Positions 44,586 through 63,975 are shown, numbered from the stretch's first letter. The stretch: DNA of 64,000 nucleotides from Pelagibacteraceae bacterium AG-345-O09 (GCA_003281725.1 QCBC01000006.1:1-64000), one strand, 5' to 3'. Numbers and translations: made by a program. Notes: generated from the sequence alone by a model not told the origin.

Positions 44586-44648
44586 AAATTCCTTATATTT
44601 TAAAAAAATCGATAATGCATTTTTTTTCAGATCTGATATATTATTATA

Positions 44649-45408: not shown

Positions 45409-46650
45409 ATGAAAATAAATAAAATAATCTTAAGTTTTATTTCTGCAATAGCATTATTATTATCTACTTCAGTAACATCTTTTGCAAAAGTTGTTGGTGA
45501 TAAGATAGTTTTAGGTTCTGCTATTTCATTAACTGGAAAATATTCCTCAAATGGTGTTCACACTCAAAACGGTTATAATATGGCCGTTGACAGAATCAAC
45601 AGCATGGGTGGAGTTAAAGTTGGTGGAAAAACTTATAAGTTTGAAATCATTTATTATGATGACGAGTCAAACCCAAAAAGAGCAGCACAACTTGCAGAAA
45701 GATTAATCTCACAAGATGGTGTTGAGTTTATGCTTGGTCCATACAGTTCTGGATTAACAAAAGCAATCGCCCCAGTAACAGAAAAATATGGTGTACCAAT
45801 GGTAGAAGCTAATGGTGCATCTAGATCATTATTTACAAAGGGATATAAATATTTATTTGCAGTGCTTGCACCAGCAAACTTATATCTAGATGTAGCGATT
45901 GATTTAGCTGTTGAAAAGAACGGTGGAAAACCTGTAAAAATAGCACAAGCTTTTGAACAAGATGCTTTCTCACAAGATGTGAGATTAGGTATTTTAGAAG
46001 CTGCTGAAAGAACAGGTTCAAAAATCATTATTGATGACAAGTTACCAAAAGAATTAAATGATATGGCTGCAACTTTAGCTAAAGTTAAAGCTGTAAAACC
46101 AGATGTTCTTGTAGTTTCAGGTCATACAAAAGGTGCATTAACTGCAATCAGACAAATAGCTGAGATGAAAGTTGATGTTCCAATGTTAGCAATGACACAC
46201 TGTGATGCTGCGAAATTATCAAAGCAACATGGTAAAAACTCTGAGTATGCATTATGTGCATCTCAATGGCATAAAACTCTTTCTTACAAAGATAAGTTCT
46301 TTGGAAATGGAATGAAATATGCTGCTGACTTTGAAAAAGAGTTCAAATATGACCCGCCATATCAAGCGGCTGAGTCATCTGCAGCTTTATTAGTTTTTAA
46401 AGATGCATTTGAAAGGGCAAATTCTTTTGATAAGAAAAAAGTAAGAGATGCTCTAGCAGCTACTAATATGCAAACTTTTTATGGAAACATAAAATTTGCA
46501 GCTGGTGGTCAAAATGTTGACAAGCCAATGGTATTATTCCAAGTTATGTGTAATGCTGATGGAAGTAAGTGTGAAAATAAAGTTGTAGCTCCAACTAAAT
46601 GGGCTTCAGCTAAATTGATCCACCCAATTCCAAGCTGGTCAGAAAGATAA
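45409..46650 (+). CDS. livK: Branched-chain amino-acid-type ABC transporter substrate-binding protein
   Basis: Signal peptide; VLGSAISLTGKYSSNGVHTQNGYNMAVDRINSMGGVKVGGKTY; followed by permeases and ATPases. Confidence 0.9.
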   Translation: MKINKIILSFISAIALLLSTSVTSFAKVVGDKIVLGSAISLTGKYSSNGVHTQNGYNMAVDRINSMGGVKVGGKTYKFEIIYYDDESNPKRAAQLAERLISQDGVEFMLGPYSSGLTKAIAPVTEKYGVPMVEANGASRSLFTKGYKYLFAVLAPANLYLDVAIDLAVEKNGGKPVKIAQAFEQDAFSQDVRLGILEAAERTGSKIIIDDKLPKELNDMAATLAKVKAVKPDVLVVSGHTKGALTAIRQIAEMKVDVPMLAMTHCDAAKLSKQHGKNSEYALCASQWHKTLSYKDKFFGNGMKYAADFEKEFKYDPPYQAAESSAALLVFKDAFERANSFDKKKVRDALAATNMQTFYGNIKFAAGGQNVDKPMVLFQVMCNADGSKCENKVVAPTKWASAKLIHPIPSWSER

Positions 46651-46663
46651 TATCTAATATTTG

Positions 46664-46696
46664 AAATGCCCCCTAGTTCTAGGGGGCATTTTTTTA
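46664..46696 (+). terminator. Strong intrinsic terminator/attenuator between the binding-protein and permease genes
   Basis: AAATGCCCCCTA GTTC TAGGGGGCATTT followed by T-run. Confidence 0.92.
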
Positions 46697-46712
46697 TAAC
46701 AGTATCTGAATT

Positions 46713-47606
46713 ATGGATTTTTTAATATTCCAAGTTCCAATGTTAACTCTACAAGCAACGCTTGATGGAATTCTATTAGGAATATTATTTGCATTAATTG
46801 CTTACGGTATGGCTCTTCAATGGGGAGTAATGAATATTATCAATATTGCTCAAGGAGATTTAGTTATTTTAGGTGGATACATTGCTTACTTTATGTACCT
46901 GTGGGGAATTCATCCTGCATGGGGAGTGATTGTTTCACCATTTATAATGTATTTTGTTGGAGTAGGAATTTATAAATTGGTTATTAATAAAGTAGTGGAT
47001 AGAGATCTATTTATCTCAATTCTAGCAACATTTGGAATAAGTATTTTATTTATGCAATTAATGAACTTTGCATTTGGTGCTGATGTTGTTCTTGCAAACT
47101 CTGGCTATGGAACAACAATGTTATTTGATAACTCTGTAACATTGCCAAATTCTAAAATATTTTCAGCATTCATTAGTATTGTTTTTGCAATAGGTTTAGT
47201 TGTTTATATGAAAAAATCTAAACTTGGCAGAGCAATTAGAGCTACAGCTCAAAATGCCCGTGCAGCAAAGATTTTAGGTGTTGATACAGAAAAAGTTTAT
47301 GCTGCTACATTTGGTATTAATGCTGCTTTATGCGGTGTTGCTGGAGCTTTAATATCAATTACTTTTACAATTCACCCTTATATGGGATTACCTTATACAA
47401 TTAGATCCTTTATGATTGTGATTGTTGCTGGATTAGGAAATCTTCCTGGTGTAGCAATGTCAGGAATGGGACTAGGAGTTTTTGAAGAATTTGCTGATTA
47501 TATTTTAGGTACAGAATTTAGAATTGGTTCTGTATTTTTATTACTAGTTTTGATTTTAGTTTATAGAAGATTTAAATTATCAAGAAAAAGAGAGTATTTA
47601 AAATAA
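46713..47606 (+). CDS. livH: LIV-type ABC transporter permease (LivH)
   Basis: GMALQWGVMNIINIAQGDLVILGGYIAYF, multi-TM. Confidence 0.92.
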   Translation: MDFLIFQVPMLTLQATLDGILLGILFALIAYGMALQWGVMNIINIAQGDLVILGGYIAYFMYLWGIHPAWGVIVSPFIMYFVGVGIYKLVINKVVDRDLFISILATFGISILFMQLMNFAFGADVVLANSGYGTTMLFDNSVTLPNSKIFSAFISIVFAIGLVVYMKKSKLGRAIRATAQNARAAKILGVDTEKVYAATFGINAALCGVAGALISITFTIHPYMGLPYTIRSFMIVIVAGLGNLPGVAMSGMGLGVFEEFADYILGTEFRIGSVFLLLVLILVYRRFKLSRKREYLK

Positions 47607-48655
47607 TGAATAAGAATATTATTTTATATGCAGCATTGTTAATTTTTGGATTAGCTGCGCCATTTATATTTCCAGCTTTTAAAGTTCAACTATCAATACT
47701 ATGTGTTTTAATTGTTTTAGCTCTTACTTGGAATATTCAAGGTGGGGAAATGGGTTATAACACCTTTGGAAATATACTATTTTATGGACTTGGAATGTAC
47801 CTTTGTGCATCAGTTCAAGTAGGAATGTTTTTTCCACTAGCTGAATGGACTGAAAGTGGTGGGGAGAAAACATTTGTACATACTCCAACTCAATTTTTTC
47901 AAGGAATGGCTATGGGTCTTGTTTTTGCGGCAGTAATCCCAACAATTGTTGCTGGATTAATTGGTTACTCAATTTTAGGATTAAGAGGCCATTACTTTGC
48001 AATTTGCACTTTAGGTTTAGGAGTTGCAGCTGGTGAGATTTCAGGTGGTATAGAAATTATAGGAGCTGGACAAGGTTTTACAACTCCACCTTTCCCAGAT
48101 GTAGGAAGCTTAGAAGCAAGAGGTGAATTCTTTTACTTCTTAAGTTTCATGGCAGTTGTTTTGACTTTTATTACAGTCAAATCAATTTATTCAACAAGAT
48201 TTAAATTAATACTAAATGCGATAAGAGACAATGAAGACAAAGCTGAGGCAATGGGAATTCAAACAATGAAATATAAAATAATTGGTTGGATGATATCTGC
48301 TTTCTTTTGTGGATTAGCTGGAGGAATTATGGGTGGTCTAGTTGGTTATATAGACTCAACTGATGTTGCATTTGATGGAAGAGAGATGGGAGTGTTTATG
48401 GTCTTGATGGCCATCTTAGGTGGAAAAGGAACTTTATGGGGACCTGTTATTGGAGCGACTGTATTTCATATTTTCAAAGAAGGTTTTTGGACATTCTTCT
48501 TAGGCTGGCAATACGTTGCACTAGGAGTTCTTATAGTTGTAATTGTAATTTATTTCCCGGAAGGAATAATGGGATGGTTAAGAGAGAAATACCCAGAGAG
48601 ATTTGGGGAAGTAGTTGATGAAGCAGATCGAAAAGCACAGGTAGAATTAAAATGA
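47606..48655 (+). CDS. livM: LIV-type ABC transporter permease (LivM)
   Basis: LRGHYFAICTLGLGVAAGEI, NAIRDNEDKAEAMGIQTMKYK. Confidence 0.92.
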   Translation: MNKNIILYAALLIFGLAAPFIFPAFKVQLSILCVLIVLALTWNIQGGEMGYNTFGNILFYGLGMYLCASVQVGMFFPLAEWTESGGEKTFVHTPTQFFQGMAMGLVFAAVIPTIVAGLIGYSILGLRGHYFAICTLGLGVAAGEISGGIEIIGAGQGFTTPPFPDVGSLEARGEFFYFLSFMAVVLTFITVKSIYSTRFKLILNAIRDNEDKAEAMGIQTMKYKIIGWMISAFFCGLAGGIMGGLVGYIDSTDVAFDGREMGVFMVLMAILGGKGTLWGPVIGATVFHIFKEGFWTFFLGWQYVALGVLIVVIVIYFPEGIMGWLREKYPERFGEVVDEADRKAQVELK

Positions 48656-49392
48656 GTATTTTAGAAGTTAGTAATGTCAGTAAATCATTTGGTGGTGTAA
48701 AGGCCAATGTTGACATTTCAATGAAAGTTGAGAAAGGAAAAATTGTTGGTCTAATAGGACCAAATGGTTCTGGTAAAACAACTCTATTTAATTCAATTGT
48801 TGGTACTTATCCAATCGATAATGGATCAATAAAATTTAATGAGAAAGAAGTATCAGAATTACCCGTTCCAGTAATAGCAAAACTTGGTTTATTAAGAACA
48901 TTTCAACAAACTAGAATTTATGGCAAATTAAATTGTGTAGAGAATATGCTAATTAGTCATAAAGGAAGTGATGCAAGCTTATTCACAATTTTTTCAAAAA
49001 TACCAAAAGACTTAACAGAAAAAGCAGAAAATTTATTAAATTTTGTTGGATTATATCAAAAACGAAACTTAAGGGCTGGCGATTTATCTTTTGGACAACA
49101 AAAATTGCTAGAATTAGCAATGGCACTTATGAATGAGCCTGAGATGTTACTATTAGATGAACCAACTGCTGGTATCAATCCTACTTTAATAAATGGAATT
49201 ATAGATAGATTAATTAAAGTTAATCAAGATTTTGGTATTACACTTTTAGTTATCGAACATAATATGAAAGTAATTATGCAGTTAGCTGAAGATATTTTTT
49301 GTTTAGCACACGGCAAGATGCTTGCAAATGGATCACCAGATGAAATTAAGAATGATAAGCGTGTTATTGATGCTTATTTGGGAGCACAATAG
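48652..49392 (+). CDS. livG: LIV-type ABC transporter ATP-binding protein (LivG)
   Basis: GPNGSGKTTLFNSIVGTY, LSFGQQKLLELAMAL, LLLDEPTAGINPT. Confidence 0.93.
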   Translation: MSILEVSNVSKSFGGVKANVDISMKVEKGKIVGLIGPNGSGKTTLFNSIVGTYPIDNGSIKFNEKEVSELPVPVIAKLGLLRTFQQTRIYGKLNCVENMLISHKGSDASLFTIFSKIPKDLTEKAENLLNFVGLYQKRNLRAGDLSFGQQKLLELAMALMNEPEMLLLDEPTAGINPTLINGIIDRLIKVNQDFGITLLVIEHNMKVIMQLAEDIFCLAHGKMLANGSPDEIKNDKRVIDAYLGAQ

Positions 49393-50177
49393 TGTCAAAT
49401 CAATATGAAGTTTTGGGTAAAGCTCCTGTTGCTGAAGATTTAAAGACTCTATCTCCTAATGATGTTCATTTAACAATAAAGAATCTCAATGCTGGTTATG
49501 GTAAAATGGAAATACTTCATAATTTTGAACTTTTTGTAAGTAAAGCACAATCACTTTGTTTAATAGGTCCTAACGGAGCGGGAAAATCCACAATACTCCA
49601 TTCAATTTATGGATTTACAAATATTTTTTCTGGAAAAATAGAAATAGACGGAAAAGAAATTACAAATCTTTCTCCTGCTGAAAAACTTAAATCAGTTGGA
49701 ATAGCCTATATTCTTCAGGATAACTCAGTTTTTCCAGATATGACAGTAGAAGAAAATTTATTAATGGGTGGGTTTATTAAAGATAAAACAGAGGAGTCTT
49801 ATGAAGAAGCAGAAAAAATTCTTCAAAAATATGAAAGACTAGGAAATAGAAGATATCAACCAGCAAAAGTATTATCTGGTGGAGAAAGAAGATTGTTAGA
49901 AATTTCTCGAGCATTAGTGATGAAGCCATCAGTTTTATTAGTTGATGAACCATCAATTGGGTTAGAGCCCAGATATATAGACATGGTATTTGAAATTTTG
50001 AGAGATCTCCAACAGAATGAAAAAAAAACTATCATTCTTGTAGAACAGAATGCTAAAAAAGGTCTTGAGTTTGCAGATATTGGTTATGTTTTGGTCTCTG
50101 GACAAACTGCAATAGCTGGTAAAGGAGACGATCTTTTAAATAATCCTGATGTCGGTCGCTTATTTTTAGGCGGTTAA
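49392..50177 (+). CDS. livF: LIV-type ABC transporter ATP-binding protein (LivF)
   Basis: GPNGAGKSTILHSIYG, LSGGERRLLEISRAL, LLVDEPSIGLEP. Confidence 0.93.
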   Translation: MSNQYEVLGKAPVAEDLKTLSPNDVHLTIKNLNAGYGKMEILHNFELFVSKAQSLCLIGPNGAGKSTILHSIYGFTNIFSGKIEIDGKEITNLSPAEKLKSVGIAYILQDNSVFPDMTVEENLLMGGFIKDKTEESYEEAEKILQKYERLGNRRYQPAKVLSGGERRLLEISRALVMKPSVLLVDEPSIGLEPRYIDMVFEILRDLQQNEKKTIILVEQNAKKGLEFADIGYVLVSGQTAIAGKGDDLLNNPDVGRLFLGG

Positions 50178-50881
50178 TGATTAAAAAAGAATTATTTTTT
50201 AGAGGATTTAAATCAATTTTAAAACCTGATAGTCCTGCAATAGCACTAGGATGTTGTTTTATCGCTATTGGTGCGCTTCTTAAAAATATAGGTTTTAATA
50301 TCCAGGAAAGCATTTTTTCTACAATGTTAATTTATGCTTTGCCAGGCTCACTAGTTATGGCAGAGTCAATTTTAGTCGGTGCTTCATTAATAAGTATTTT
50401 TATTGCAGTTTGGTTTGTTAATGCAAGACTTTATCCAATGGCAGTTTCTTTATTCCCATTGATGATGGACGAAAAGCAACCAAAATGGAAATATTATTTA
50501 TCTTGTCATTTCATTGCAGTCTCAGCTTGGTTAATTATGAAAAGTAACTATGAGACGATTGAAAAAAAAGATCGAGTTGATTTCTGGATAGGCATAGGTT
50601 CTGCAACATGGAGTGTTGCAGTTGTATCAACAATTCTTGGTTTTTATTTATCTGATTATCTAAATAAAGATATGTTAATGGGTTTAGCTATTTTGAATCC
50701 AATCTATTTTACATGTATGTTGGTAGGAGCGATGAAAACAATTCAAGTTAGTTTATCAGTTATACTTGGAGGATTATTAGGTCCATTTTTTTATTTTTTT
50801 TCACCAGAATGGTCAATTTTACTCGGAGGATTAATTGCAGGATCAATATCTTATTTGATTGGAGAAAAAAATGTCAATTAA
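50177..50881 (+). CDS. azlC: AzlC-family branched-chain amino acid exporter large subunit
   Basis: AIALGCCFIAIGALLKNIGFNIQESIFSTMLIYALPGSLVMAES; followed by a small AzlD-like protein. Confidence 0.85.
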   Translation: MIKKELFFRGFKSILKPDSPAIALGCCFIAIGALLKNIGFNIQESIFSTMLIYALPGSLVMAESILVGASLISIFIAVWFVNARLYPMAVSLFPLMMDEKQPKWKYYLSCHFIAVSAWLIMKSNYETIEKKDRVDFWIGIGSATWSVAVVSTILGFYLSDYLNKDMLMGLAILNPIYFTCMLVGAMKTIQVSLSVILGGLLGPFFYFFSPEWSILLGGLIAGSISYLIGEKNVN

Positions 50882-51194
50882 TATTCTATTATCAATAATT
50901 GTAACTTCATTGGCAACTTATATATCACGATTTTTAGGAGTTTTGTCATCAGTTAAAATTAAAGAAACTTCAAAAATATTTCGATGGTTCAATTGTTTAG
51001 CTTACGCAACACTAGCGGCACTTATTGCACGAACTATAATATTTCCTGTTGGGGCGCTATCTGACGCAAGTTATTTAAGTAGAATTTTAGTTGTCATGTT
51101 GAGTTTAGGGATTTTTTTTGTCACAAAAAAAAACTTTGTTTACCCTACGGTATTTTCAGCAGTGGCAATGAGCTTAATTAATAATTATTTTTAA
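50871..51194 (+). CDS. azlD: AzlD-family branched-chain amino acid exporter small subunit (start revised from 50859)
   Basis: Small 4-TM protein, TSLATYISRFLGVLSS, overlapping azlC. Confidence 0.8.
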   Translation: MSINILLSIIVTSLATYISRFLGVLSSVKIKETSKIFRWFNCLAYATLAALIARTIIFPVGALSDASYLSRILVVMLSLGIFFVTKKNFVYPTVFSAVAMSLINNYF

Positions 51195-51235: not shown

Positions 51236-52147
51236 ATGAATGACATACCAGGATTTGAAATTTCACCAAATAAAAATTCCCCTAGAATAATTGATGTTAA
51301 GATTAAAAACCAAACTATTGAAAAATTAATTTTCCCTTTTAAAAAATTTGATCTAACAGCAATTGAATACAAACCATTCACGAGATTTACAATTGCAAAA
51401 AGTTTGGACGACTTAACTCAAAATAAACTTAGTATTTTATTAAATAAAATTATCAGAGATAGAAAATTAGGGTGTTTTATAATTGGTCCAGAAGATAAAA
51501 ATTCTAATATTGATGATATCTTTTTGGTTAAGTTGTCCACTGCGATATCTCATTTAATTGGTAACCCCAATCATGACTCTATGGCAGGAAAGTACTATGC
51601 AAGATTTCATGTAAAACATGTAGACAAGAGTGACTCATATTTAAGGAAAGCTTATACCAACATGGATCTTCATACTGATGGAACATATGTGAAGGAAGTA
51701 ACCGATTGGCTTTTGATGACAAAGATTGAAGAAAAAAATGTCGAAGGTGGTGAAACAGCAATGCTACACTTAGATGATTGGGAATACTGTGAAGAATTGT
51801 TTAACGATCCAGTGGGTAAAGAAAATTTTGTTTGGTCTTCACCAAAAAGTAAAAATATAGATTATAAGGTTGAGCATCCAGTATTTTCAAAAGATGAAAA
51901 TGGAAAAGCTCAAATTTCATATATTGATCAATTTCCTGAACCAAGAAATATGTCCCAAGGAAATTTTTTGCAAAAACTATCTGATTGTTTAGAAGAGAGT
52001 AAAAATAAAGTCATAACAAAATTACCAGTTGGCTCAGCCATCGTGGCAAACAATTATTTTTGGTTACATGGCAGACGTCCATTCAAAGAAAACAAAGATT
52101 TAAGCAGAGAACTCTTGAGAATTAGGGGTTCATTTTTCCAAAATTAA
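51236..52147 (+). CDS. glaH: CsiD/GlaH-family Fe(II)/2-oxoglutarate-dependent oxygenase (glutarate 2-hydroxylase-like)
   Basis: YYARFHVKHVDKSDSYLRKAYTNMDLHTDGTYVKEVTDWLLMTKIEEKNVEGGETAMLHLDDWE and NNYFWLHGRRPFKENKDLSRELLRIRG, matching the CsiD family pattern with the HxD iron ligands. Confidence 0.85.
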   Translation: MNDIPGFEISPNKNSPRIIDVKIKNQTIEKLIFPFKKFDLTAIEYKPFTRFTIAKSLDDLTQNKLSILLNKIIRDRKLGCFIIGPEDKNSNIDDIFLVKLSTAISHLIGNPNHDSMAGKYYARFHVKHVDKSDSYLRKAYTNMDLHTDGTYVKEVTDWLLMTKIEEKNVEGGETAMLHLDDWEYCEELFNDPVGKENFVWSSPKSKNIDYKVEHPVFSKDENGKAQISYIDQFPEPRNMSQGNFLQKLSDCLEESKNKVITKLPVGSAIVANNYFWLHGRRPFKENKDLSRELLRIRGSFFQN

Positions 52148-52181
52148 ACTATCATCCCTAAAATAAGAAATTTATAAATTT

Positions 52182-52949
52182 ATGAAATTAGGATTTATTG
52201 GAACAGGAAAAATAGCTTCCTCAGTTATTTTAGGAGTATGTAGATCTAAGATAAAGTTTAGACAAATAATAGTATCTCCAAGAAATAAGAGAATAGCAAA
52301 TAATTTAAAGAAAAAATTTAAAAAAGTAAGTATTGCAAAAAACAATCAAGATGTAATTAACAAATCAAATTGGATATTTTTATCTGTTACTCCAAAAGTA
52401 GGAGATAAAATTATTAAAGACTTAAAATTTAAATCTAATCAAACAATTATAAGTTTTATTTCAACCATAAATCTTTCTGAACTTAAAAAAATGATCAAAG
52501 TAAAATCTAAAATTGTTAGAGCAATACCATTGCCTCCAATTTCTATCAAAAAGGGCCCAGTTCCTATTTGTCCACCTAATAGACAAGTTAAAAGTTTTTT
52601 TGATAAAATTGGATCTACCATAGAAATTAAAAATGAAAAACTGTCTATTAATTTTTGGTCGACATCTGGGATGATGGCATCTTATTATGAAATGTTAAGA
52701 GTAATGAGTAATTGGCTTGTAAAAAAAGGCATAAAGAAACAAGATGCTCAAAAATATATAACTTCATTATTTTTAGCTTTATCAGAGGATGCAGTTGTAA
52801 ATTCTAATAAGAATTTAAAACATTTAGTGAAAGAGTCTCAAACACCGAAAGGACTTAACCAACAAGGTCTTAATACGATGTTAAAAAAAGGTGTTTATAA
52901 ATCTGTTGTTTATACTTTAAACAGTATTCACAAAAGATTGAATAAATAA
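52182..52949 (+). CDS. Pyrroline-5-carboxylate reductase-like (ProC family) oxidoreductase
   Basis: MKLGFIGTGKIASSVILGVC Rossmann motif; IFLSVTPKVGDKI, IVRAIPLPPI. Confidence 0.75.
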   Translation: MKLGFIGTGKIASSVILGVCRSKIKFRQIIVSPRNKRIANNLKKKFKKVSIAKNNQDVINKSNWIFLSVTPKVGDKIIKDLKFKSNQTIISFISTINLSELKKMIKVKSKIVRAIPLPPISIKKGPVPICPPNRQVKSFFDKIGSTIEIKNEKLSINFWSTSGMMASYYEMLRVMSNWLVKKGIKKQDAQKYITSLFLALSEDAVVNSNKNLKHLVKESQTPKGLNQQGLNTMLKKGVYKSVVYTLNSIHKRLNK

Positions 52950-52952
52950 TTA

Positions 52953-53741
52953 ATGTCTCAAATTATTTTAGAAATTAATAATCTTTCAAAATTTTTTGGG
53001 GGATTGGCTGCTGTATCGGACTGTTCATTAAAAGTAAAAAAGGGAACTATCACAGGGATTATAGGTCCGAATGGATCTGGTAAAACAACTTTATTTAATT
53101 TAATAGCTGGAAATTTAAAATCATCTAAAGGAAATGTTAAATTTAATAATGAAGATATTACTGATACTCCATCATATGAATTATTCTCTAGAGGTTTATT
53201 GAGAACTTTTCAAATTGCACATGAATTTACGAATTTATCTGTTTTAGAAAATTTAATGATGGTACCTGGAAATCAATCTGGTGAAAAATTAACGAATGTT
53301 TTGTTAAAGCCTTCTTTTGTTGCAAAAGAAGAAAATTTAATTAAAGAAAAAGCAAAAGAAGTAGTAGAATTTTTAAATTTAAGTCACCTTTCAAATGAAC
53401 TTGCTGGAAATCTATCTGGAGGTCAAAAAAAACTTTTAGAGCTTGGCAGAACAATGATGGTTGATGCAAAATTAGTATTATTAGACGAGGTTGGTGCTGG
53501 AGTTAATAGAACATTGCTTAAAGATTTAGGCACTGCAATTCAAAAATTAAATCAAGAAAAAGGTTATACTTTTTGTATGATTGAACATGATATGGATTTT
53601 ATAGGGAGACTTTGCGATCCAGTTATTGTTATGGCTGAAGGTTCAGTTTTATTCGAGGGTACTGTAGAAAATGCAAAAAAAGATCAAAAGGTTATAGAGA
53701 GCTATTTAGGCAGAGGATCAAAATTAAAGGATAAAAACTGA
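52953..53741 (+). CDS. LIV-type ABC transporter ATP-binding protein, second system (LivG-like)
   Basis: GPNGSGKTTLFNLIAGNL, LSGGQKKLLELGRTM, LLDEVGAGVN. Confidence 0.92.
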   Translation: MSQIILEINNLSKFFGGLAAVSDCSLKVKKGTITGIIGPNGSGKTTLFNLIAGNLKSSKGNVKFNNEDITDTPSYELFSRGLLRTFQIAHEFTNLSVLENLMMVPGNQSGEKLTNVLLKPSFVAKEENLIKEKAKEVVEFLNLSHLSNELAGNLSGGQKKLLELGRTMMVDAKLVLLDEVGAGVNRTLLKDLGTAIQKLNQEKGYTFCMIEHDMDFIGRLCDPVIVMAEGSVLFEGTVENAKKDQKVIESYLGRGSKLKDKN

Positions 53742-54448
53742 TGGCTTTCTTTGAGGGAAATAAAATGACTGGTGGTTATGGAAATGGTCCTGATATTATT
53801 CATTCATGCACTGTTACCGTTGATAGGGGAGAAATTGTATCTATTCTTGGACCCAACGGTGCAGGAAAATCTACAGCCATGAAGGCTATGTTAGGACTTC
53901 TTAATTTAAAGTCAGGTACAATAACTATAGATGGAAAAGATATTTCAAATTTGTCACCACAAGATCGAGTGAAACAAGGAATTTCATTTGTACCTCAGAC
54001 TAAAAATGTATTTGCAGGTATGACTGTTGAGGAAAATTTGGAGATGGGTGCATTTTTATTAGATAAAAATTTAAAAAAATTAATAGATGATATTTTTGAT
54101 TTATTTCCGATTTTACAAGAAAAAAGAAATCAATTAGTTGGAGAATTATCAGGAGGACAAAGGCAACAAGTTGCTTTAGGAAGGGCATTGATGATTAAGC
54201 CTTCAGTATTAATGTTAGATGAACCTACAGCTGGAGTTTCTCCGATAGTAATGGATGAGTTATTTGATCATATAATAAAAGTAAAAAAAACTAATGTTGC
54301 CATACTTATGGTCGAACAAAATGCCAAACAAGCATTAAACATTTCTGATAGAGGATACGTGTTAGTAACAGGAGAGAATCGTTATTCTGGCACAGGAAAG
54401 GAATTGTTGAATGACTCAAGAGTAAGAAGCTCATTCTTAGGTGGTTAA
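53741..54448 (+). CDS. LIV-type ABC transporter ATP-binding protein, second system (LivF-like)
   Basis: GPNGAGKSTAMKAMLGLL, LSGGQRQQVALGRAL, LDEPTAGVSP. Confidence 0.92.
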   Translation: MAFFEGNKMTGGYGNGPDIIHSCTVTVDRGEIVSILGPNGAGKSTAMKAMLGLLNLKSGTITIDGKDISNLSPQDRVKQGISFVPQTKNVFAGMTVEENLEMGAFLLDKNLKKLIDDIFDLFPILQEKRNQLVGELSGGQRQQVALGRALMIKPSVLMLDEPTAGVSPIVMDELFDHIIKVKKTNVAILMVEQNAKQALNISDRGYVLVTGENRYSGTGKELLNDSRVRSSFLGG

Positions 54449-55459
54449 ATGGATTTTATAAACGCAATTATTCTTTTACTAAACTATATATTTGTCCCAG
54501 CTTTAACTTATGGTTCACAGTTAGCACTAGGCGCAATATTCGTGACATTGATTTATGGTATTTTAAGATTTGCCAATTTTGCTACCGGGGACATGATGTC
54601 ATTTGGAACTATGGCGGCAATTTTGTTTACTTGGTATTTTCAATCCTTGGGTGTTTCGTTGGGTGTTTTGCCAACAGCACTTATAGCTATTCCATTTGCA
54701 ATCATTTTTATGATTTTTTATATGCTGTTGACTGATAAATTTGTTTTCAAATACTATAGAAATCAAAAAAGCCCACCTGTTCAACTTGCTATGGTTAGTA
54801 TAGGTGTGATGTTTGTTACTCAAGCAGTAGTAAGAATTATTATAGGGCCTTCAGATAGAAGATTTTTCGATGGCGAGAAATTCATAATTAAAGCAGGTGA
54901 ATTTAAAGAAATTACAGGGTTAAATGAAGGTCTTGCAATTAAATCAACTCAAATATTAACTATACTGGTAACTTTAATTTTAGTTTCAACACTTTTTTGG
55001 TTTTTGAATAAAACTAAGACTGGAAAAAGTATGAAAGCTTATTCGGATAATGAAGATCTTGCTTTACTCTCAGGCATAGATCCAAAAAAAATAGTTATGA
55101 TTACTTGGATAATTGCTGGAATATTGGCAACTATTGGTGGAACTCTTTATGGTTTAGACAAAAGCTTTAAACCATTCACATACTTTAACAATATGCTACC
55201 CATATTTGCGGCAGCGATAGTTGGGGGAATTGGTAATCCTTTTGGAGCGTTTCTAGGGGGATATGTAATTGCTTTTTCTGAAATACTTTTGACATATGCA
55301 TATAAGAAATTTTTTATTTATGTTTTACCAGAAAGTATGGAGCCTGATGGTTTAGTTCAATTACTTTCAACTGATTACAAATTTGCAGTTTCTTTTTCAA
55401 TATTAGTAATTGTGTTGTTATACCGACCGTCTGGAATATTTAAAGGCAAGGTGCTATGA
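54449..55459 (+). CDS. LIV-type ABC transporter permease, second system (LivH-like)
   Basis: TLIYGILRFANFATGDMMSFGTMAAI; multi-TM. Confidence 0.9.
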   Translation: MDFINAIILLLNYIFVPALTYGSQLALGAIFVTLIYGILRFANFATGDMMSFGTMAAILFTWYFQSLGVSLGVLPTALIAIPFAIIFMIFYMLLTDKFVFKYYRNQKSPPVQLAMVSIGVMFVTQAVVRIIIGPSDRRFFDGEKFIIKAGEFKEITGLNEGLAIKSTQILTILVTLILVSTLFWFLNKTKTGKSMKAYSDNEDLALLSGIDPKKIVMITWIIAGILATIGGTLYGLDKSFKPFTYFNNMLPIFAAAIVGGIGNPFGAFLGGYVIAFSEILLTYAYKKFFIYVLPESMEPDGLVQLLSTDYKFAVSFSILVIVLLYRPSGIFKGKVL

Positions 55460-56826
55460 GAAAAAACTTAAATGTAATTGCTGCTTACAGTATTATGATG
55501 GGATTAATCATACTTGTTGGAATATTTCAGTCATGGAATATTGCTTTATCAATATTTAATCTTTGTTTAATCTCAGCTGTCATGACGATGGGAGCTAATA
55601 TCCAATGGGGTTATGCTGGTCTAATTAATTTTGGAATAATGGGTTATACAGCTTTAGGCGGTTTAGCAGCAGTTTTAATTTCAGTTAATCCAGTTCAGGA
55701 AGCTTGGAGTGCAGGAGGTTCTAATATTTTATTTAGTCTATTCTTAATTATAGGAATGGTATTAGCTGTTAGATATGTTTTAAAAAAATATGATAAATCT
55801 AAACTTAGAACTTATATAATTGCCACAATTATCATTTCAGGAATTATTTTAGTTAGATTTGTTTCTGAGCCAGGTATTGAAGCAATAGAAGAAGTAAATC
55901 CTGCTAAAACAGGTTTTCTTGGTGGCTTTGGATTACCAATTATTTTTTCATGGATAGTAGGGGCAGTATTTGCAGGTGGTTTAGCCTTTATTATTGGTAA
56001 AGTAGCTTTAGGCCTAAGAGCTGATTACTTAGCAATAGCAACTCTACTTATTTCAGAAATCGTAATAGCAATTATTAAACATGAAGACTGGTTAACAAGA
56101 GGTGTTAAAAACGTAATAGGTCTGAAGCGCCCAGCGCCATATGAAGTAGATCTTCAGCAAACAGATTGGTTCATAAATTTAGTAGAAAAATTTAATTTTA
56201 GTAAATTAAATTTGATACAAGATTTTTCAGAAAGACAAATTGCACTTAACCAGTTGGTAATCGAAGGTTCTTCAATTTTTGTAAAACTTTGTTATTCAGG
56301 ATTATTTTTAGTTGTAGTAATTATTCTTTTAATATTAACCCAAAAAGCTCTTTATTCTCCATGGGGACGAATGATGAGAGCTATAAGAGATAATGAAGAG
56401 GCAGCAAATGCAATGGGTAAAAATGTAGTTAAGCAACATTTACTAATATTTGTTTTAGGCTCAGCTATAGTTGGAATTGCCGGAGCAATGTTAGTAACGC
56501 AAGATGGACTTTTTACACCAGGTAGCTACCGGCCAATGAGATATACATTTTTAATTTGGGTAATGGTAATTGTTGGAGGGAGTGGAAATAATTTTGGTGC
56601 AATTTTAGGTGGTTTTGCAGTTTGGTTTTTGTGGATTGAAGCAGCACCAATTGCACTCTTTGTAATTAATATAACTACATCCGGATTAGCTGATAACCAC
56701 TTTTTAAAACAACATTTAATTGAAAGTGTGCCTTACTTTAGGTTTTTAATAATGGGAATAGGCCTATTATTAATTATGAGGTATAGACCTAAAGGTATAC
56801 TTCCAGAAAAAATAGAAATAAAATAA
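55456..56826 (+). CDS. LIV-type ABC transporter permease, second system (LivM-like, enlarged)
   Basis: NIQWGYAGLINFGIMGYTALGG, GLRADYLAIATLLISEIV, RAIRDNEEAANAMGKNV. Confidence 0.9.
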   Translation: MRKNLNVIAAYSIMMGLIILVGIFQSWNIALSIFNLCLISAVMTMGANIQWGYAGLINFGIMGYTALGGLAAVLISVNPVQEAWSAGGSNILFSLFLIIGMVLAVRYVLKKYDKSKLRTYIIATIIISGIILVRFVSEPGIEAIEEVNPAKTGFLGGFGLPIIFSWIVGAVFAGGLAFIIGKVALGLRADYLAIATLLISEIVIAIIKHEDWLTRGVKNVIGLKRPAPYEVDLQQTDWFINLVEKFNFSKLNLIQDFSERQIALNQLVIEGSSIFVKLCYSGLFLVVVIILLILTQKALYSPWGRMMRAIRDNEEAANAMGKNVVKQHLLIFVLGSAIVGIAGAMLVTQDGLFTPGSYRPMRYTFLIWVMVIVGGSGNNFGAILGGFAVWFLWIEAAPIALFVINITTSGLADNHFLKQHLIESVPYFRFLIMGIGLLLIMRYRPKGILPEKIEIK

Positions 56827-56904: not shown

Positions 56905-56934
56905 AAACCCCCAACGAATTAATGCTGGGGGTTT
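56905..56934. terminator. Bidirectional intrinsic terminator between convergent operons
   Basis: AAACCCCCA (56905-56913) / TGGGGGTTT (56926-56934); T-rich on both outer sides. Confidence 0.88.
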
Positions 56935-56950
56935 ATATTTTAAGATCCAA

Positions 56951-58132
56951 TTATCTTTGTTTTTTAGTTTTGAATTTTCCGCCTTTGATTTCTTGTTCTA
57001 AGAAAGAACCTTCAGCCTCACCGACGCTAGTAAAAGTAACTCCAGTTGCACCCTCGTAGTCAACTTTTTTACCTTTTGCTAGTAAATCTAAACCTTTTTT
57101 TAGTTCACCTGGATAAATTTTTGTTCCAGGACCATTAGCAACATCCATCACATTTTTTGCAATTGATGCTCGATCAGCTGATCCACCTGCTTGCATTGCT
57201 AAAATGATTAAAGCAGCAGCATCATAAGACTCACCAGTGTAAGGACCTGAGCTATCGATACCAGCAGCTTTTGCTACATCACCGAATACACTTGCACCTT
57301 TACCAGTTGAACCTGGCATAGAACCAAAAGATTTTTTCAAGTCTTTTCCAAATACATCAACTAATGACTGACCGATCATACCATCAGATAAAATGAATTT
57401 ATCAAACGCACCAGAGTCTAGGGAGGCTTGAATAATTCCTTTACCACCTTGGTCTAAATAACCAATTACCGCTACTGCATCACCACCTGCTGAAGCAAGA
57501 GTTGCTACTTCAGAGGAGTAATCTGCTTTACCATCTTCATGAGCAGTTACAGTAGTTACTTTGATACCATGAGCTTCAACAGCTGCTTTGTAAACATCTG
57601 CTAAACCTTTTCCATAGTCATTGTTAGTATAAGTGATTGCAACACTTTTAACTTTTCTATCTTTAGTAATATCAGCTAAAATTTGACCACCCCTAGCATC
57701 AGACGGAGCAGTTCTAAAGAAATACCCTTTGTCATCTAAAGTAGTTAATCCTGGTGATGTAGCTGATGGTGAAATCATTACTACACCGTTTGGTACAGCA
57801 ACATTTGAAGCTATTGCTCCAGTTACACCTGAACAGTCTGCGCCCATAATAGCCGCTACACCTTGCGCAATAACACCTTCAGCTGCTGCGGTTGCCGCTG
57901 CTGAGTCTACACAAGTAGAATCTGCTCTTATTACTGAAACAGTTTCCCCACCTAATAGCGATCCTGAGTCAGAAGCTTCTTTGAAAGCAAGCTCAGCGGA
58001 GGCAGCCATTGCTGGTGTTAGAGATTCAATAGGACCAGTAAATCCCAATATAATTCCCATCTTAACATCTGCAAATGTATTCGTTGTAATAGTTGAAACG
58101 AACATGAAAGCAGCAATAAATAGTTTTTTCAT
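56951..58132 (-). CDS. LIV-type ABC transporter substrate-binding protein, second system (start revised from 58198)
   Basis: Signal peptide MKKLFIAAFMFVSTITTNTFA; VKMGIILGFTGPIESLTPAMAASAELAFKEASDSGSLLGG. Confidence 0.9.
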   Translation of the reverse strand: MKKLFIAAFMFVSTITTNTFADVKMGIILGFTGPIESLTPAMAASAELAFKEASDSGSLLGGETVSVIRADSTCVDSAAATAAAEGVIAQGVAAIMGADCSGVTGAIASNVAVPNGVVMISPSATSPGLTTLDDKGYFFRTAPSDARGGQILADITKDRKVKSVAITYTNNDYGKGLADVYKAAVEAHGIKVTTVTAHEDGKADYSSEVATLASAGGDAVAVIGYLDQGGKGIIQASLDSGAFDKFILSDGMIGQSLVDVFGKDLKKSFGSMPGSTGKGASVFGDVAKAAGIDSSGPYTGESYDAAALIILAMQAGGSADRASIAKNVMDVANGPGTKIYPGELKKGLDLLAKGKKVDYEGATGVTFTSVGEAEGSFLEQEIKGGKFKTKKQR

Positions 58133-58206
58133 TATCTTCCTTTTAATTGTTAACAATTTATAAAGATAAATTAAATCTAATTTTCTAAAAATTTTCAATA
58201 ACCAAT

Positions 58207-59064
58207 TTAACTTATTTTATGTAGATAGATTACAGAACTAATAACAATAATGCCTCCTATTACGAATAAGAATGACGGAACCTCTCCAAATATGAGAAAA
58301 CTTAGCAAAATACCAAAAATTGGAAACAAGGAATAGAAAGGAAAAATTTTACCTACTGTATAAAATTTATACAAATAGAACATTAATAGGTGTGCACATA
58401 AAGAAACAATAATTGCTTGGTATGAAATTAATATCCAAGACTCCATTTCAATTAGTCTGATGTTTCTAATTACCTCACCTTCTAATATTGAAGAAATAAA
58501 AATTAAGATAACAAAACCAAAAAGACCTGTGCTTACATTAATTAGACTGATACTTAAATCTTTTAATTGTCTAGAGTAAACTTGAGCTAACCCAAAAAAT
58601 AATGCCATTAAACTTGCAAATAATAAACCAAGAAAATTGTCAGTTAGTTTTGGATCAAAAAATATTATTAGAATCCCTAAAAAAGAAGTAAAAATTAATA
58701 TCCACTTTTTTCTACTGATGTTTTCATCAAGTATAAAAGCACTTGCAATTATACCAAATGGAATTGCTAATTGTGATCCTAGTATTATTGGAGAAATTAT
58801 AGAAGAATGGAATAATGATAAGTTCATAAATACGTAAACCATTACTCCCATAGATAATGAAAAGAATATTAAGGACTTATAATATTTTTTTTCTGGTAAC
58901 TTGAACTTCCAAAATGGAATTAAAATCAATAACACTAATGCCATACGCAGGGAAGCCATTAGTATTGGTGGTACCGAATTGTTTAAAGCCAATTTAGCTA
59001 CAGGAAAAGCACTACCATGTGCAGCCATTATAAAGAGTAAAATTAATAAATGTTTGATTGGCAA
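58207..59064 (-). CDS. EamA/DMT-family permease (TTG start at about 59064 preferred over 59199)
   Basis: 10-TM DMT pattern LLILLFIMAAHGSAFPVAKLAL; the track's N-terminal extension overlaps the ALDH coding sequence. Confidence 0.83.
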   Translation of the reverse strand: MPIKHLLILLFIMAAHGSAFPVAKLALNNSVPPILMASLRMALVLLILIPFWKFKLPEKKYYKSLIFFSLSMGVMVYVFMNLSLFHSSIISPIILGSQLAIPFGIIASAFILDENISRKKWILIFTSFLGILIIFFDPKLTDNFLGLLFASLMALFFGLAQVYSRQLKDLSISLINVSTGLFGFVILIFISSILEGEVIRNIRLIEMESWILISYQAIIVSLCAHLLMFYLYKFYTVGKIFPFYSLFPIFGILLSFLIFGEVPSFLFVIGGIIVISSVIYLHKIS

Positions 59065-59068
59065 ATCA

Positions 59069-60550
59069 TTAACCCATTGTGAAAGGATCAGACATTGGCT
59101 TATCAGAGGAGTTATACCAAGTTGTTTTAATTCTCGTATATTCTTTGATTGACTCGATACCCGCTTCTTTTCCATAGCCACTATCTTTAATTCCACCAAA
59201 AGGTGCCATTGGAGATATTAATCGATAAGTATTTATAAATACTATCCCAGCTCTTATTGCTTTTGAAACCCTAAGGCCTCTTGCAAAGTTAGATGTATAA
59301 ACTCCAGATGATAATCCATATTTGTTATCATTCATTTTTTTTATAACTTCTTCTTCTTCATCAAACTTCATAACGGATAATATTGGTCCGAACAATTCAT
59401 TCTCAGCTACTGGAAGGTTATGATTTTCACATTCAATAATTGTTGCAGGAAAATAATAACCTTTATTTGAAACAGAGGATCTCTCACCACCACATCTTAT
59501 TTTTCCACCTTGTTCAGTAGTTGCCTTAATATTTTTTTCTATATTTTCTAATTGTTTAAAACTATTCAAAGGTCCCATCTGAGTATCTTCTTCCATAGGT
59601 CCACCTAATTTTATTTTTTTTGCTTTAGTTATCAATTTGTCTAAAAATTCATTATAGATTTTAGATTGTAAATAGAGTCTTGATCCAGCAATACAACTTT
59701 GCCCACTAGCACCAAATATTCCTGCAGTAATTCCATTTAAAGCATTTTCTTGATCAGCATCATCAAACACTACGACAGGACTTTTTCCACCAAGTTCTAA
59801 ACTTACTTGTGATAAATTTTCAGCAGAATTTTTTACAATACGTTTGGCTGTTTCAGGGCCACCAGTGAATGCAATTCTTTCTACAAGATTATGTGTAGTC
59901 AGTGCTTTACCACATGGCTCTCCTAATCCAGTAATTATATTAATTACTCCTTTGGGTATTCCAGTTTTTTCTATTAATTTTGCAAATTCTAAAAGGGTTA
60001 CTGGTGCAAGTTCTGATGCTTTTATTACTACTGTATTACCCATAGCAAGTGCAGGAGCAAGCTTAACAGCAGTCAATAGCATTTGAGAATTCCAAGGAAT
60101 AATTGCTGCTACAACACCAATCGGTATCCTTGTTGTAGTGACTTGCATTTCAGGTTTATCAATTGGAATTACAGTCCCCTCAACTTTGTCAGCCAGTCCA
60201 GCAAAATAATCATAATATTCTGCAATATAATTAGCCTGGGTTTTTGTTTCTCTATAAATTTTTCCTGTATCTATAGTTTCTACTTTTCCTAGATGCTCTG
60301 CATTTTCTCTTAGTTGATCAGCAATTAATCTTAAGTATTTTGCTCTATCTCTCGGGTGAAGTATTGACCAACTATTTTCAAAAGCATTTTGTGCTGATTG
60401 AACAGCTCTATCTACATCTTTCTCATTGGCTTCAGGAACTGTTGCCCACACCTCATTGTTTTCTGGGTTAAGAGTTTGTATTTTTTTACCCGATGAGGAG
60501 TCTACCCACTCACCATTTATATACATTTTAAAATTTTGAATTTTTGGCAT
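59069..60550 (-). CDS. NAD(P)-dependent aldehyde dehydrogenase
   Basis: IPWNSQMLLTAVKLAPALAMGNTVVIKASELAP, LELGGKSPVVVFDDAD, GQSCIAGSRLYL catalytic Cys. Confidence 0.95.
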   Translation of the reverse strand: MPKIQNFKMYINGEWVDSSSGKKIQTLNPENNEVWATVPEANEKDVDRAVQSAQNAFENSWSILHPRDRAKYLRLIADQLRENAEHLGKVETIDTGKIYRETKTQANYIAEYYDYFAGLADKVEGTVIPIDKPEMQVTTTRIPIGVVAAIIPWNSQMLLTAVKLAPALAMGNTVVIKASELAPVTLLEFAKLIEKTGIPKGVINIITGLGEPCGKALTTHNLVERIAFTGGPETAKRIVKNSAENLSQVSLELGGKSPVVVFDDADQENALNGITAGIFGASGQSCIAGSRLYLQSKIYNEFLDKLITKAKKIKLGGPMEEDTQMGPLNSFKQLENIEKNIKATTEQGGKIRCGGERSSVSNKGYYFPATIIECENHNLPVAENELFGPILSVMKFDEEEEVIKKMNDNKYGLSSGVYTSNFARGLRVSKAIRAGIVFINTYRLISPMAPFGGIKDSGYGKEAGIESIKEYTRIKTTWYNSSDKPMSDPFTMG

Positions 60551-61333
60551 TTAATTATTAATAAAATTCTTGATGTTCATATTAACATCATCTGCACACT
60601 CTATACTACAAAGATGTTTTCCATTTTTAATTTCAATAAAAATTGAATTAGGTAGGTCTTTAGCTAATTCTTGAGACATTTTTGGAGTCGATCCAGGGTC
60701 ATTAGATCCAGTCATAATTAAAGTCTTTGAGGTAATATTTTTGATTATTAATGAATTATCGTTGTGATTAGCAAATAATTCGTAAGCTTTAAGAAAGTTT
60801 TTATGATCCTCGGGTTCCTTAGTTAGTATTTTCATAAACAAATCGTAAGTCGAAGTATTGTTTTCTATATAATTATCGCTAAACCATCTTTTAAGTGCTT
60901 GTTTTGATATTGGTTTATTTAGTTTAGCTTGATTATATCTATCTAAAACTAGTGCTCTTTCAGCTTCAGATCTTTTGTAAGTTGTCCCGATTAATATAAG
61001 CTTATTAACTTTATCTTGGTAATTTGAGGCAAAGTCTAAGGCTATTAGAGATCCAAGAGAAAACCCAACAAGATTAATCTTATCTACTTGAAGATTATTA
61101 AGTATTTCATCAAGTTGTTTCGAAAAATCATTGAGAGTTAACTTTTCTTTTTTGCAAGGTGTTTTTCCATGACCCAATAAATCATATGTAATTATAGAGA
61201 ATTCATTTAATTTACTAACTTGTGATTGCCACATTTGATGATCAAGGCCAACTCCATGAATAAAAACCAACGGAGTTGTTTTTTTTTTAAAAAAAAAATA
61301 GTGATTTTGATTTGAATCAAAATTATCAGACAT
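60551..61333 (-). CDS. Alpha/beta hydrolase
   Basis: FIHGVGLDHQMWQSQ oxyanion loop, LVGFSLGSLIAL nucleophile elbow, NGKHLCSIE catalytic His. Confidence 0.9.
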   Translation of the reverse strand: MSDNFDSNQNHYFFFKKKTTPLVFIHGVGLDHQMWQSQVSKLNEFSIITYDLLGHGKTPCKKEKLTLNDFSKQLDEILNNLQVDKINLVGFSLGSLIALDFASNYQDKVNKLILIGTTYKRSEAERALVLDRYNQAKLNKPISKQALKRWFSDNYIENNTSTYDLFMKILTKEPEDHKNFLKAYELFANHNDNSLIIKNITSKTLIMTGSNDPGSTPKMSQELAKDLPNSIFIEIKNGKHLCSIECADDVNMNIKNFINN

Positions 61334-61337
61334 TGAA

Positions 61338-61925
61338 TTATTTTAGGTCTAAACCCATTTCTTTCATATCTTGATAACGATCTCCAGTTCTAGCATGTGC
61401 TCTACCACTTGAAGCACCTCCAATTGCAATTACTATTTCATCATCAAATGGTGCATCATGAATTGTAAACTCATGAGTTAGATAATAAGGTCTTAAACCT
61501 GAGTCAGTTTTATGCATCATTGGTATGGATATTTTAGAGCCTGCTGGACCTCTAGTGTTTGTAAAACTTAAATAAGATGTTCCACCAACAGCATCTCTAA
61601 ATTTATTACCAAATCTTAAGGTATGAATGAATGCTGATGCATGTTCTATTTCACCGTTCAAGCCAACAGTTCCTGCTTTACCATAAGCCAAAATTTTTTC
61701 TGGTGATCCGATTTCTTTTATTAATTCTGGAACTAAAGCATCACCAAGTTTTGGAGCTAAATCTAAAATGATTGGTTTTAAATCTTCCACAAAACCTTTT
61801 CCAGCCCAAGGATTTTTAAACACAGCTGCTACTGATACTAATAAGACTGCTTTTTTAGCTTTCTTTCCACCCTCAATGAAAGTTTTATCAACAAACTTTG
61901 TAAACTTTCTAAGCTCTAAATCCAT
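61338..61925 (-). CDS. PF06684 (DUF1185, 'amino acid synthesis') family protein
   Basis: 195 aa; VSVAAVFKNPWAGKGFVEDL, GKAGTVGLNGEIEHASAFIHTLRFGNKFRDAVGG, DEIVIAIGGASSGRAHARTGDR. Confidence 0.82.
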   Translation of the reverse strand: MDLELRKFTKFVDKTFIEGGKKAKKAVLLVSVAAVFKNPWAGKGFVEDLKPIILDLAPKLGDALVPELIKEIGSPEKILAYGKAGTVGLNGEIEHASAFIHTLRFGNKFRDAVGGTSYLSFTNTRGPAGSKISIPMMHKTDSGLRPYYLTHEFTIHDAPFDDEIVIAIGGASSGRAHARTGDRYQDMKEMGLDLK

Positions 61926-63091
61926 TAACTTGCTTTTTCTATACTAGAAGAGTCTAAATTAATTTTTGGAATTACCTCGTCATTAAATAATTTGACGCTT
62001 CTCATACAAGCTTTATGATCTATACCGGGGAAGTTAGACCAAACTTGTAGATTTTGTAAATTTAATTCAGATTTTAATTCATTAATCTTATTAACAACAT
62101 ACTCAGGAGTACCAAATAATAAATTTCTTTTATGAAGAAAATCATAGTTTAGTAAATCCAATTTATGTTTTGTCTCAGGAAGTTCTTCGCCAGGATCCAT
62201 ATGATTTCCTAATCCTCTCCAATGACAAACCCATTTCATATAATTAATGATGTGTTCACCAGCCATTTTTTCTGCTTCTTCCATAGTTTCAGCAACAAAC
62301 ATATCCCTTACTAAAGATATACCTTCTCCTAATGGAACATCTCTATTTTCAGCCCTTGATTTTGCATCTCTATAAATTTCAAATCTTTTCTTTAAAGCTT
62401 TAACAGTTGGTATCCACATAATTGTATTTAAACCATTCTGTGCAGCCCACTCAATTGATCTAGCACCATCAACAACTTGCCAAATAGGAGGATGCGGTGA
62501 TTGTTTTGGTTTTGGAACGATACTTATTTTTTTTATTTCATTTGTCTTTGTATCTAAAAACTTTTCACTTGGCGGACTCATATCATGTTGCCAAACAAAG
62601 TTTGGTGAGGGATAAGTATAAAATTCACCTTGATGACTAAAAAACTCTTCTGTCCAAGCTTTTTTCATGATTGTTAAAGATTCTTCAAATAGTCTGAAAT
62701 TTTTAGCCTGGTCCTTGAGATCAGCTTCTTTATTCATATTTATTGCTTCTCTTCCATAGATTCCTCTACCAATACCAACATCAACTCTGCCACCTGATAA
62801 TTGATCTAGTAAAGCTATGTCTTCTGCTAATCTTATTGGATTATGAAATGTAATGACATTGCATGCTTGTCCAATTCTTATTTGTTTAGTTCTAGCTGCT
62901 GCATCAACACCCATCATTAAAGGATTTGTACAAGACTCCATTCCTTCATGATTAAAATGATGCTCAGTATACCAAATTGAGTCCCAATTATTTTCATCAC
63001 AAAAAGTTGTGATCTCTTTGGTTTCATTAAGTAGTTGATTATATGACTTGTGATTCCAATTTGTGGTGTTGCAAAAATATCCAAATTTCAT
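61925..63091 (-). CDS. LLM-class (bacterial luciferase-like) flavin-dependent oxidoreductase
   Basis: IRLAEDIALLDQLSGGRVDVGIGRGIYGREAINM, WYTEHHFNHEGM, PPIWQVVDGARSIEWAAQNGLN. Confidence 0.92.
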   Translation of the reverse strand: MKFGYFCNTTNWNHKSYNQLLNETKEITTFCDENNWDSIWYTEHHFNHEGMESCTNPLMMGVDAAARTKQIRIGQACNVITFHNPIRLAEDIALLDQLSGGRVDVGIGRGIYGREAINMNKEADLKDQAKNFRLFEESLTIMKKAWTEEFFSHQGEFYTYPSPNFVWQHDMSPPSEKFLDTKTNEIKKISIVPKPKQSPHPPIWQVVDGARSIEWAAQNGLNTIMWIPTVKALKKRFEIYRDAKSRAENRDVPLGEGISLVRDMFVAETMEEAEKMAGEHIINYMKWVCHWRGLGNHMDPGEELPETKHKLDLLNYDFLHKRNLLFGTPEYVVNKINELKSELNLQNLQVWSNFPGIDHKACMRSVKLFNDEVIPKINLDSSSIEKAS

Positions 63092-63231
63092 TCGAGCCTC
63101 CTTAAATAATTAAATCTAAGACGATCGATCCCACTTTCGTATTTTGTAAATATCGACGAGTTATGTATCGCTCAGCTAAGACTGTAATTTAACTAGACTA
63201 TTTAATCAATATATATTTAATCAGCAATTAA

Positions 63232-63975
63232 ATGAAACTAATTAAAATAGAACCAAAATTTATTGAAAAACATAACCCAAGGATAGGATTAATTACCTTA
63301 GCAAGCGATTTTAGGATTGAAAAAGATTTTAACAATATAATTTATGGTAAAGACATAGACTTATTTTGTAATAGAATTCAAAGTTATAATCCCTTAACAA
63401 ATGAAACATTAAAAAAAATGGCAGATGATATTCCTAAAGTTGTTAAGAATATCTTACCTGACCAAAAAATTGATTGTATAGCCTATGGATGTACTTCAGG
63501 AACAATTGCTGCAGGATATGCATCTATTTATGAAAAAGTTAATTCAACAAAACCAAATACAAAAGTCACAACACCAATTACATCTGCAATTAATGCATTA
63601 AAGGCACTTAAGATAAATAAATTATCTATATTCACACCTTATACAGATGAAATAAATCAGTCAGTAATTAATTATTTTCAAAAAGAAAATATAGAAATCA
63701 CTGGATTAACTTATTTTGATATAGCCTCAGATTTAGATATAGGAAAAGTTAATCCAGATCATTTATTTGATGTTTTAAGTAAAATAGATTTGTTAAATAG
63801 TGATGCATTGTTTATTTCTTGTACTGCGTTACCTGTGTTATCAATTATTAAAGATTTAGAAAAAAAAATGAATAAAATAGTTTTATCTAGCAATCAAACT
63901 TTAATATGGGACACACTCAAACAGATTGATTTTAAAAGTAAAGTTAAAGGCTACGGTGAATTATTTAATAATTAG
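63232..63975 (+). CDS. Asp/Glu racemase / maleate isomerase superfamily protein, EutA-like
   Basis: PRIGLITLASDFRIEKDF, YGCTSGTIAAG and ISCTALPVLS two-Cys motifs, SIFTPYTDEINQSVINYF. Confidence 0.75.
   Translation: MKLIKIEPKFIEKHNPRIGLITLASDFRIEKDFNNIIYGKDIDLFCNRIQSYNPLTNETLKKMADDIPKVVKNILPDQKIDCIAYGCTSGTIAAGYASIYEKVNSTKPNTKVTTPITSAINALKALKINKLSIFTPYTDEINQSVINYFQKENIEITGLTYFDIASDLDIGKVNPDHLFDVLSKIDLLNSDALFISCTALPVLSIIKDLEKKMNKIVLSSNQTLIWDTLKQIDFKSKVKGYGELFNN

Follow-up and report, generated by a model that had tools for sequence, protein, structure and literature searches.

A SAR11 operon of the trigonelline (tgn) kind with a divergent flavin monooxygenase, probably for ring opening of an N-methylated pyridine carboxylate

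The subject of this analysis is a six-gene operon in the SAR11 genome of Pelagibacteraceae bacterium AG-345-O09. It lies in a window, meaning the whole stretch of DNA analysed, of 64,000 nucleotides (GCA_003281725.1 QCBC01000006.1:1-64000). The genes are on the minus strand and run from 63091 to 56951. The first (61925..63091) encodes a luciferase-like flavin monooxygenase (LLM; PF00296, E 1.9e-45), which belongs to a clade called S-type here and not to the TgnB type. It is followed by a PF06684 protein of the AA_synth or TgnF family (61338..61925; E 7.6e-64, 215 bits), an alpha/beta hydrolase resembling enol-lactonases such as PcaD (60551..61333; PF00561, E 3.2e-28) and a TgnC-like aldehyde dehydrogenase (ALDH; 59069..60550; PF00171, E 4.3e-162). 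The last two genes are an EamA/DMT permease (58207..59064; PF00892, E 6.4e-22) and a periplasmic binding protein (SBP) of the leucine/isoleucine/valine (LIV) type (56951..58132, ATG start at 58132; PF13458, E 1.5e-30), which was aligned with Leu/Ile/Val-binding proteins.

A first-pass annotation had placed six genes of these families between the same limits, and profile matches recovered all six. It had also described the first five as tightly packed with the SBP last, in agreement with the measured junctions. LLM and PF06684 overlap by 1 nt, and the gaps that follow are 4 nt (PF06684 to hydrolase), 0 nt (hydrolase to ALDH), 4 nt (ALDH to EamA) and 74 nt (EamA to SBP). The EamA gene most likely begins with the TTG at 59064, which makes its product 285 aa long, like that of a related locus (L169), and not at 59199, where the open reading frame starts. 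Scans for promoters and terminators near the operon gave signals at or below chance, and an Rfam search found no riboswitch near it.

The arrangement is conserved across SAR11. The order LLM, PF06684, hydrolase, ALDH, in some loci with a thiamine pyrophosphate (TPP) enzyme after the LLM, was colinear in 64 of the 64 loci long enough for the test. The 1-nt overlap recurs in 59 of 60 adjacent LLM/PF06684 pairs. Such packing and order place the arrangement far beyond chance. The co-occurrence check proposed by the first-pass annotation also returned the four families together in two other alphaproteobacterial genomes (G211 and G226). EamA and SBP follow the ALDH in only 39 of 63 SAR11 loci, with the SBP directly after the ALDH in 3 more; where both are lacking, the minus-strand genes that come after the ALDH are unrelated and resemble housekeeping genes. 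The unit is thus formed by the catabolic enzymes, and uptake is an accessory to it. The earlier expectation that all six genes stay together holds for the four enzymes and fails for EamA and SBP, while uptake encoded in the same transcript is correct for the present locus without being a fixed feature.

PF06684 was present in 48 of 147 sampled Pelagibacterales (about one third) and lay inside this operon at every SAR11 locus tested. All of the 80 best-matching relatives of this PF06684 protein, at 93-98% identity, come from Pelagibacteraceae or Pelagibacterales. The TPP enzyme, of the sulfoacetaldehyde acetyltransferase (Xsc)/acetolactate synthase family, separates LLM from PF06684 in 17 of 77 SAR11 loci and also in a related family (f159); examples from SAR11 and f159 are L066 7304-9004, L141 6761-8458, L170 9645-11342 and L052.

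The tgn operon of Acinetobacter baylyi ADP1 serves trigonelline degradation, as reported by Perchat et al. in 2018. In Acinetobacter sp. PK01 (NZ_CP094644), the five tgn families (flavin reductase, LLM, ALDH, hydrolase and PF06684) form an operon in which three genes are annotated tgnA, tgnB and tgnC (trigonelline monooxygenase, dehydrogenase); it adjoins N-methylglutamate-dehydrogenase-like genes and a succinic semialdehyde dehydrogenase gene. Plasmids of Rhodobacterales, rhizobia, Acinetobacter and Burkholderia carry a GntR regulator, PF06684, hydrolase, flavin reductase, LLM and ALDH, usually followed by a transporter. Homologous operons were found in Leisingera, Thioclava, Sinorhizobium meliloti pSymA, Shinella, B. 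multivorans and Marivivens, and a further layout of the module in Agrobacterium, Rhizobium and Thalassospira. In a third layout, on plasmids of Parasedimentitalea and Aminobacter (L161 and L162), the module is accompanied by genes for enoyl-CoA hydratase, 3-hydroxyacyl-CoA dehydrogenase and BKACE.

Two of the SAR11 enzymes are close kin of proteins from these operons. The nearest plasmid relatives of the ALDH (50-55%) are tgnC-type ALDHs beside PF06684, and about 20 of the plasmid ALDH records listed have a PF06684 match 3-6 kb away. In the ALDH tree, the SAR11 sequences fall inside the operon-associated clade that contains TgnC (support 100/98). The PF06684 tree likewise groups SAR11 with tgn-type operons, at 52-57% identity to the plasmid-borne proteins. 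Residues H95, H101 and H177, which belong to a histidine cluster reported as conserved in this family (PMC2954203), are invariant. Of the enzyme set, the PF06684 protein is the best conserved, which suggests a shared intermediate.

The hydrolase has a GFSLG serine motif, and S92, D212 and H240 are invariant in 16 SAR11 copies. It is 26-34% identical to hydrolases of tgn-type operons and belongs to the same enol-lactonase-like family; many of its top plasmid matches sit in such operons. Its structural model (predicted local distance difference test, pLDDT, 88) has enol-lactonase 2xua as best PDB match. The fold search gave no substrate clue, returning the enol-lactonase/esterase fold only.

The first enzyme is different. 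It is a member of PF00296 by its luciferase-like domain and EHH catalytic motif (residues 43-45), which is invariant in comparison with TgnB-type and other LLMs. In the tree it belongs to the 27-row S-type clade (support 100/99), apart from the 12-row TgnB-type clade (100/100). The LLMs that accompany PF06684, hydrolase and ALDH in G211 and G226 are also S-type, with a flavin reductase in G211. Among 40 PF06684 loci fetched from a sample of 289 alphaproteobacterial genomes, 5 are operons with a TgnB-type LLM, one of them in a 1.4-Mb genome; most of the 40 belong to a distant subfamily (33-41%) without these neighbors. The occurrence of S-type LLMs with the same partners in two other lineages, and of TgnB-type LLMs in others, indicates that the oxygenase was exchanged while the partners stayed. 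A canonical TgnB elsewhere in the genome was considered and rejected: the best TgnB match was the operon LLM in 5 of 6 Pelagibacter genomes searched, and G299 has an extra LLM at 29%. An AlphaFold model of the LLM was set aside (pLDDT 58).

No flavin reductase of family PF01613 (TgnA-type) was found in the operon or in the AG-345-O09 genome, a 0.91-Mb assembly that is 78% complete. FMN_red (PF03358) proteins are present in SAR11 and are candidate flavin donors for the LLM.

Convergent to the operon lies a plus-strand ATP-binding cassette (ABC) transporter set, LivGFHM (52953-56826), composed of LivG-type (52953..53741) and LivF-type (53741..54448) ATPases and LivH-type (54449..55459) and LivM-type (55456..56826) permeases. 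No binding protein is encoded within this set, which stands tail-to-tail with the SBP in most loci having both. The SBP at 56951-58132 is therefore its likely partner, and probably its missing subunit, not an orphan. A GC-rich hairpin read from the sequence, AACCCCCAACGAATTAATGCTGGGGGTT (approximately 56905..56938), lies between the converging LivM and SBP genes and is probably their shared terminator; its loop exceeds the length handled by the terminator scanner. The transporters beside the enzyme core differ between SAR11 lineages. A further LIV-type transporter, complete with a binding protein, occurs at 45409-50177, followed by AzlC and AzlD genes (region 45409-51194).

On balance we favor the reading that SAR11 has here a variant of the tgn/hom-type operon for ring opening of an N-methylated pyridine carboxylate, homarine being the best candidate. 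We infer the substrate, the order of reactions and the cargo of the transporters by analogy with the trigonelline pathway, drawing on PMC7913881 and PMC8269262. The LLM, with reduced flavin and O2, would oxygenate the ring at the carbon next to the N-methyl nitrogen, and the ring would open to leave N-formyl and aldehyde ends. The TgnC-like ALDH would oxidize the aldehyde, or a cyclic hemiacetal, to the carboxylate, and the hydrolase would split off the formyl end as formate. A late step would be assisted by the PF06684 protein, as reported for TgnF. From homarine, the route would lead to N-methylglutamate and then glutamate. At this locus, the substrate would enter through the EamA permease and the LIV transporter; other SAR11 lineages would use other systems. 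The first-pass proposal of import plus catabolism, in which the LLM cleaves a ring oxidatively, a hydrolase acts and a semialdehyde is oxidized, fits these findings.

The choice of homarine is guided by marine chemistry. According to PMC8269262, homarine is a common marine compound and trigonelline is far scarcer, at pM in seawater particles. The same paper (Heal et al.) argues that TgnA/B would be sterically hindered on homarine. A later correction (PMC10134881) cut the homarine concentrations 25-fold and withdrew a growth test. The abundance of homarine, the scarcity of trigonelline and the argued inability of TgnA/B to open homarine favor homarine as substrate, and the steric hindrance would fit a changed oxygenase beside unchanged partners. 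A homarine pathway with N-methylglutamate dehydrogenase (Mgd) as a participant is cited in PMC13390433 (Ferrer-Gonzalez et al. 2026, Nat Microbiol 11:1531). The AG-345-O09 genome has one SoxBDA-like locus, at 41/45/34% to the Mgd-like subunits of PK01, figures that do not separate sarcosine oxidase from Mgd. Co-occurrence of SoxD/Mgd-type genes was discarded as a substrate clue, being uninformative: almost every Pelagibacter has such genes, whether it carries the operon or not.

Several observations weigh against the homarine reading. Identity between the S-type LLM and TgnB is only about 26%, so the difference in substrate could go beyond a single ring isomer. The class-wide sample contains operons with TgnB-type LLMs, and it could be these that homarine users have. 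Conservation of the hydrolase is poor, at 45-50% between SAR11 lineages. No PF01613 flavin reductase was found in six operon-bearing Pelagibacter genomes that are 99-100% complete. Neither the TPP enzyme nor the Rieske oxygenase beside the G211 operon has a place in the tgn scheme.

The TPP enzyme and the additional oxidoreductases of G211 leave a modest chance that the substrate is a different one. It could be another N or S heterocycle or a betaine, which the S-type LLM would cut differently while ALDH, hydrolase and PF06684 would process a similar enamide-semialdehyde; we hold this as a tentative second choice. The deep split of the LLMs is in keeping with it, as are the TPP enzyme between LLM and PF06684, the layouts with CoA-pathway genes or a Rieske GbcA-like oxygenase, and the variation of transporters by lineage. 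In a version that is likewise possible at low probability, the S-type LLM would cleave a marine heterocycle or betaine without a published pathway, using a reductase of another family, and some lineages would pass the product to the in-operon TPP enzyme. Nevertheless, most loci hold exactly the tgn enzyme set minus the reductase, and the strong conservation of PF06684 suggests a shared intermediate.

It is unlikely that this is a plain trigonelline operon, in which the S-type LLM would perform the TgnB reaction and yield succinic semialdehyde, methylamine and formate. The partner families are the same, including PF06684/TgnF, and the ALDH lies within the TgnC-containing clade, but the LLM falls outside the TgnB clade. 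A search of the operon and its neighbors found no succinic semialdehyde dehydrogenase (TgnE), which PK01 and S. meliloti carry downstream, and the pM level reported for trigonelline in seawater particles also speaks against it. That very common families (LLM, ALDH, alpha/beta hydrolase) have met in a loose cluster of generic oxidative enzymes with no single pathway is most improbable, being contradicted by the complete colinearity, the near-constant 1-nt overlap and the same combination in distant proteobacteria.

The first-pass range for the operon extended to 63975 and took in a seventh gene (63232..63975), which is divergent, on the plus strand and outside the transcript. This EutA/Amdase-like gene (TIGR02990, 185 bits, cut-off 318) heads a neighboring operon that continues beyond the window (L172 7080-9335), first with a gene for an ectoine hydrolase of the DoeA kind (468 bits, cut-off 613) and then with polyamine-type ABC genes. 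In related loci, a 3-hydroxyacyl-CoA dehydrogenase-like gene stands at its far end. All genes of the divergent operon score below the ectoine family cut-offs, and the divergent EutA lies upstream of the enzyme core in 39 of 58 loci. In four loci from other SAR11 lineages (L170, L171, L052 and L066), same-strand genes before the LLM include GMC choline-dehydrogenase-like, TauD-like, 2-oxoglutarate (2OG)-Fe(II) oxygenase, EamA and thioesterase genes; in L171, a DAO-family oxidoreductase is immediately upstream of the LLM.

Upstream of LivGFHM, at 51236-52949, is a gene for a CsiD-type glutarate dioxygenase (459 bits, cut-off 333), followed by one for a P5CR-like protein (318 bits, cut-off 254). 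Many loci lack these genes close to the operon, so they were not adopted as pathway members. Elsewhere in the window, an rhtB small RNA element (RF01814, 81.9 bits; 44631-44713) lies directly upstream of a LysE-type exporter gene, and a permuted alphaproteobacterial tmRNA occupies 22140-22472 on the minus strand (ARAGORN tag ANESYAIAA; RF01849).

If the homarine reading is true, a sizeable share of the most abundant ocean heterotrophs would use a common phytoplankton solute for carbon and nitrogen. The marker gene would then be the S-type LLM and not tgnB, and the wrong marker would miss SAR11 users in metagenomes. The operon provides an example of oxygenase exchange in an otherwise conserved pathway, and raises the question of where reduced flavin comes from in cells without a PF01613 reductase.

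The first-pass annotation had called the operon a candidate undescribed one and had not recognized the set as a named pathway. This does not stand, as the same families make up the trigonelline operon and TgnF of ADP1 is homologous to a PF06684 protein, according to PMC7913881. The SAR11 and PK01 operons both combine PF06684/TgnF, an alpha/beta hydrolase, an LLM and ALDH/TgnC, with ALDH and PF06684 closely related (about 51-54%). They differ in that the SAR11 LLM is of another clade, no flavin reductase gene is present, the gene order is changed, the GntR regulator is missing, and LIV/EamA genes replace a cytosine-permease-type transporter. Counterparts of TgnF and TgnC are present, and the hydrolase is a possible counterpart of TgnD; a TgnB-orthologous LLM, a TgnA-type flavin reductase and, in the operon or beside it, TgnE were not found. 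The match is to a characterized kind of pathway, not to the exact pathway. New features are the LLM from a separate, non-TgnB clade and the operon-bearing complete SAR11 genomes without PF01613.

The G211 operon (L145) has the SAR11 order, with an S-type LLM (55%), PF06684 (63%), hydrolase (32%) and ALDH (52%). Unlike the SAR11 operon, it comes with a flavin reductase, a LysR regulator and a GbcA-like Rieske oxygenase, and its ALDH is nearer to TgnC (60%). Genes for an FAD oxidoreductase and a GMC dehydrogenase also lie near it. Its order, flavin reductase-LLM-PF06684-hydrolase-ALDH, links the S-type LLM to tgn-type partners. Ferrer-Gonzalez and colleagues reportedly described in 2026 a conserved operon, homABCDER, found also in SAR11 and yielding N-methylglutamate and glutamate. 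Its gene number presumably matches the GntR plus five-gene operon of the plasmids. This hom operon may be the SAR11 operon described here, in which case the system would already be known.

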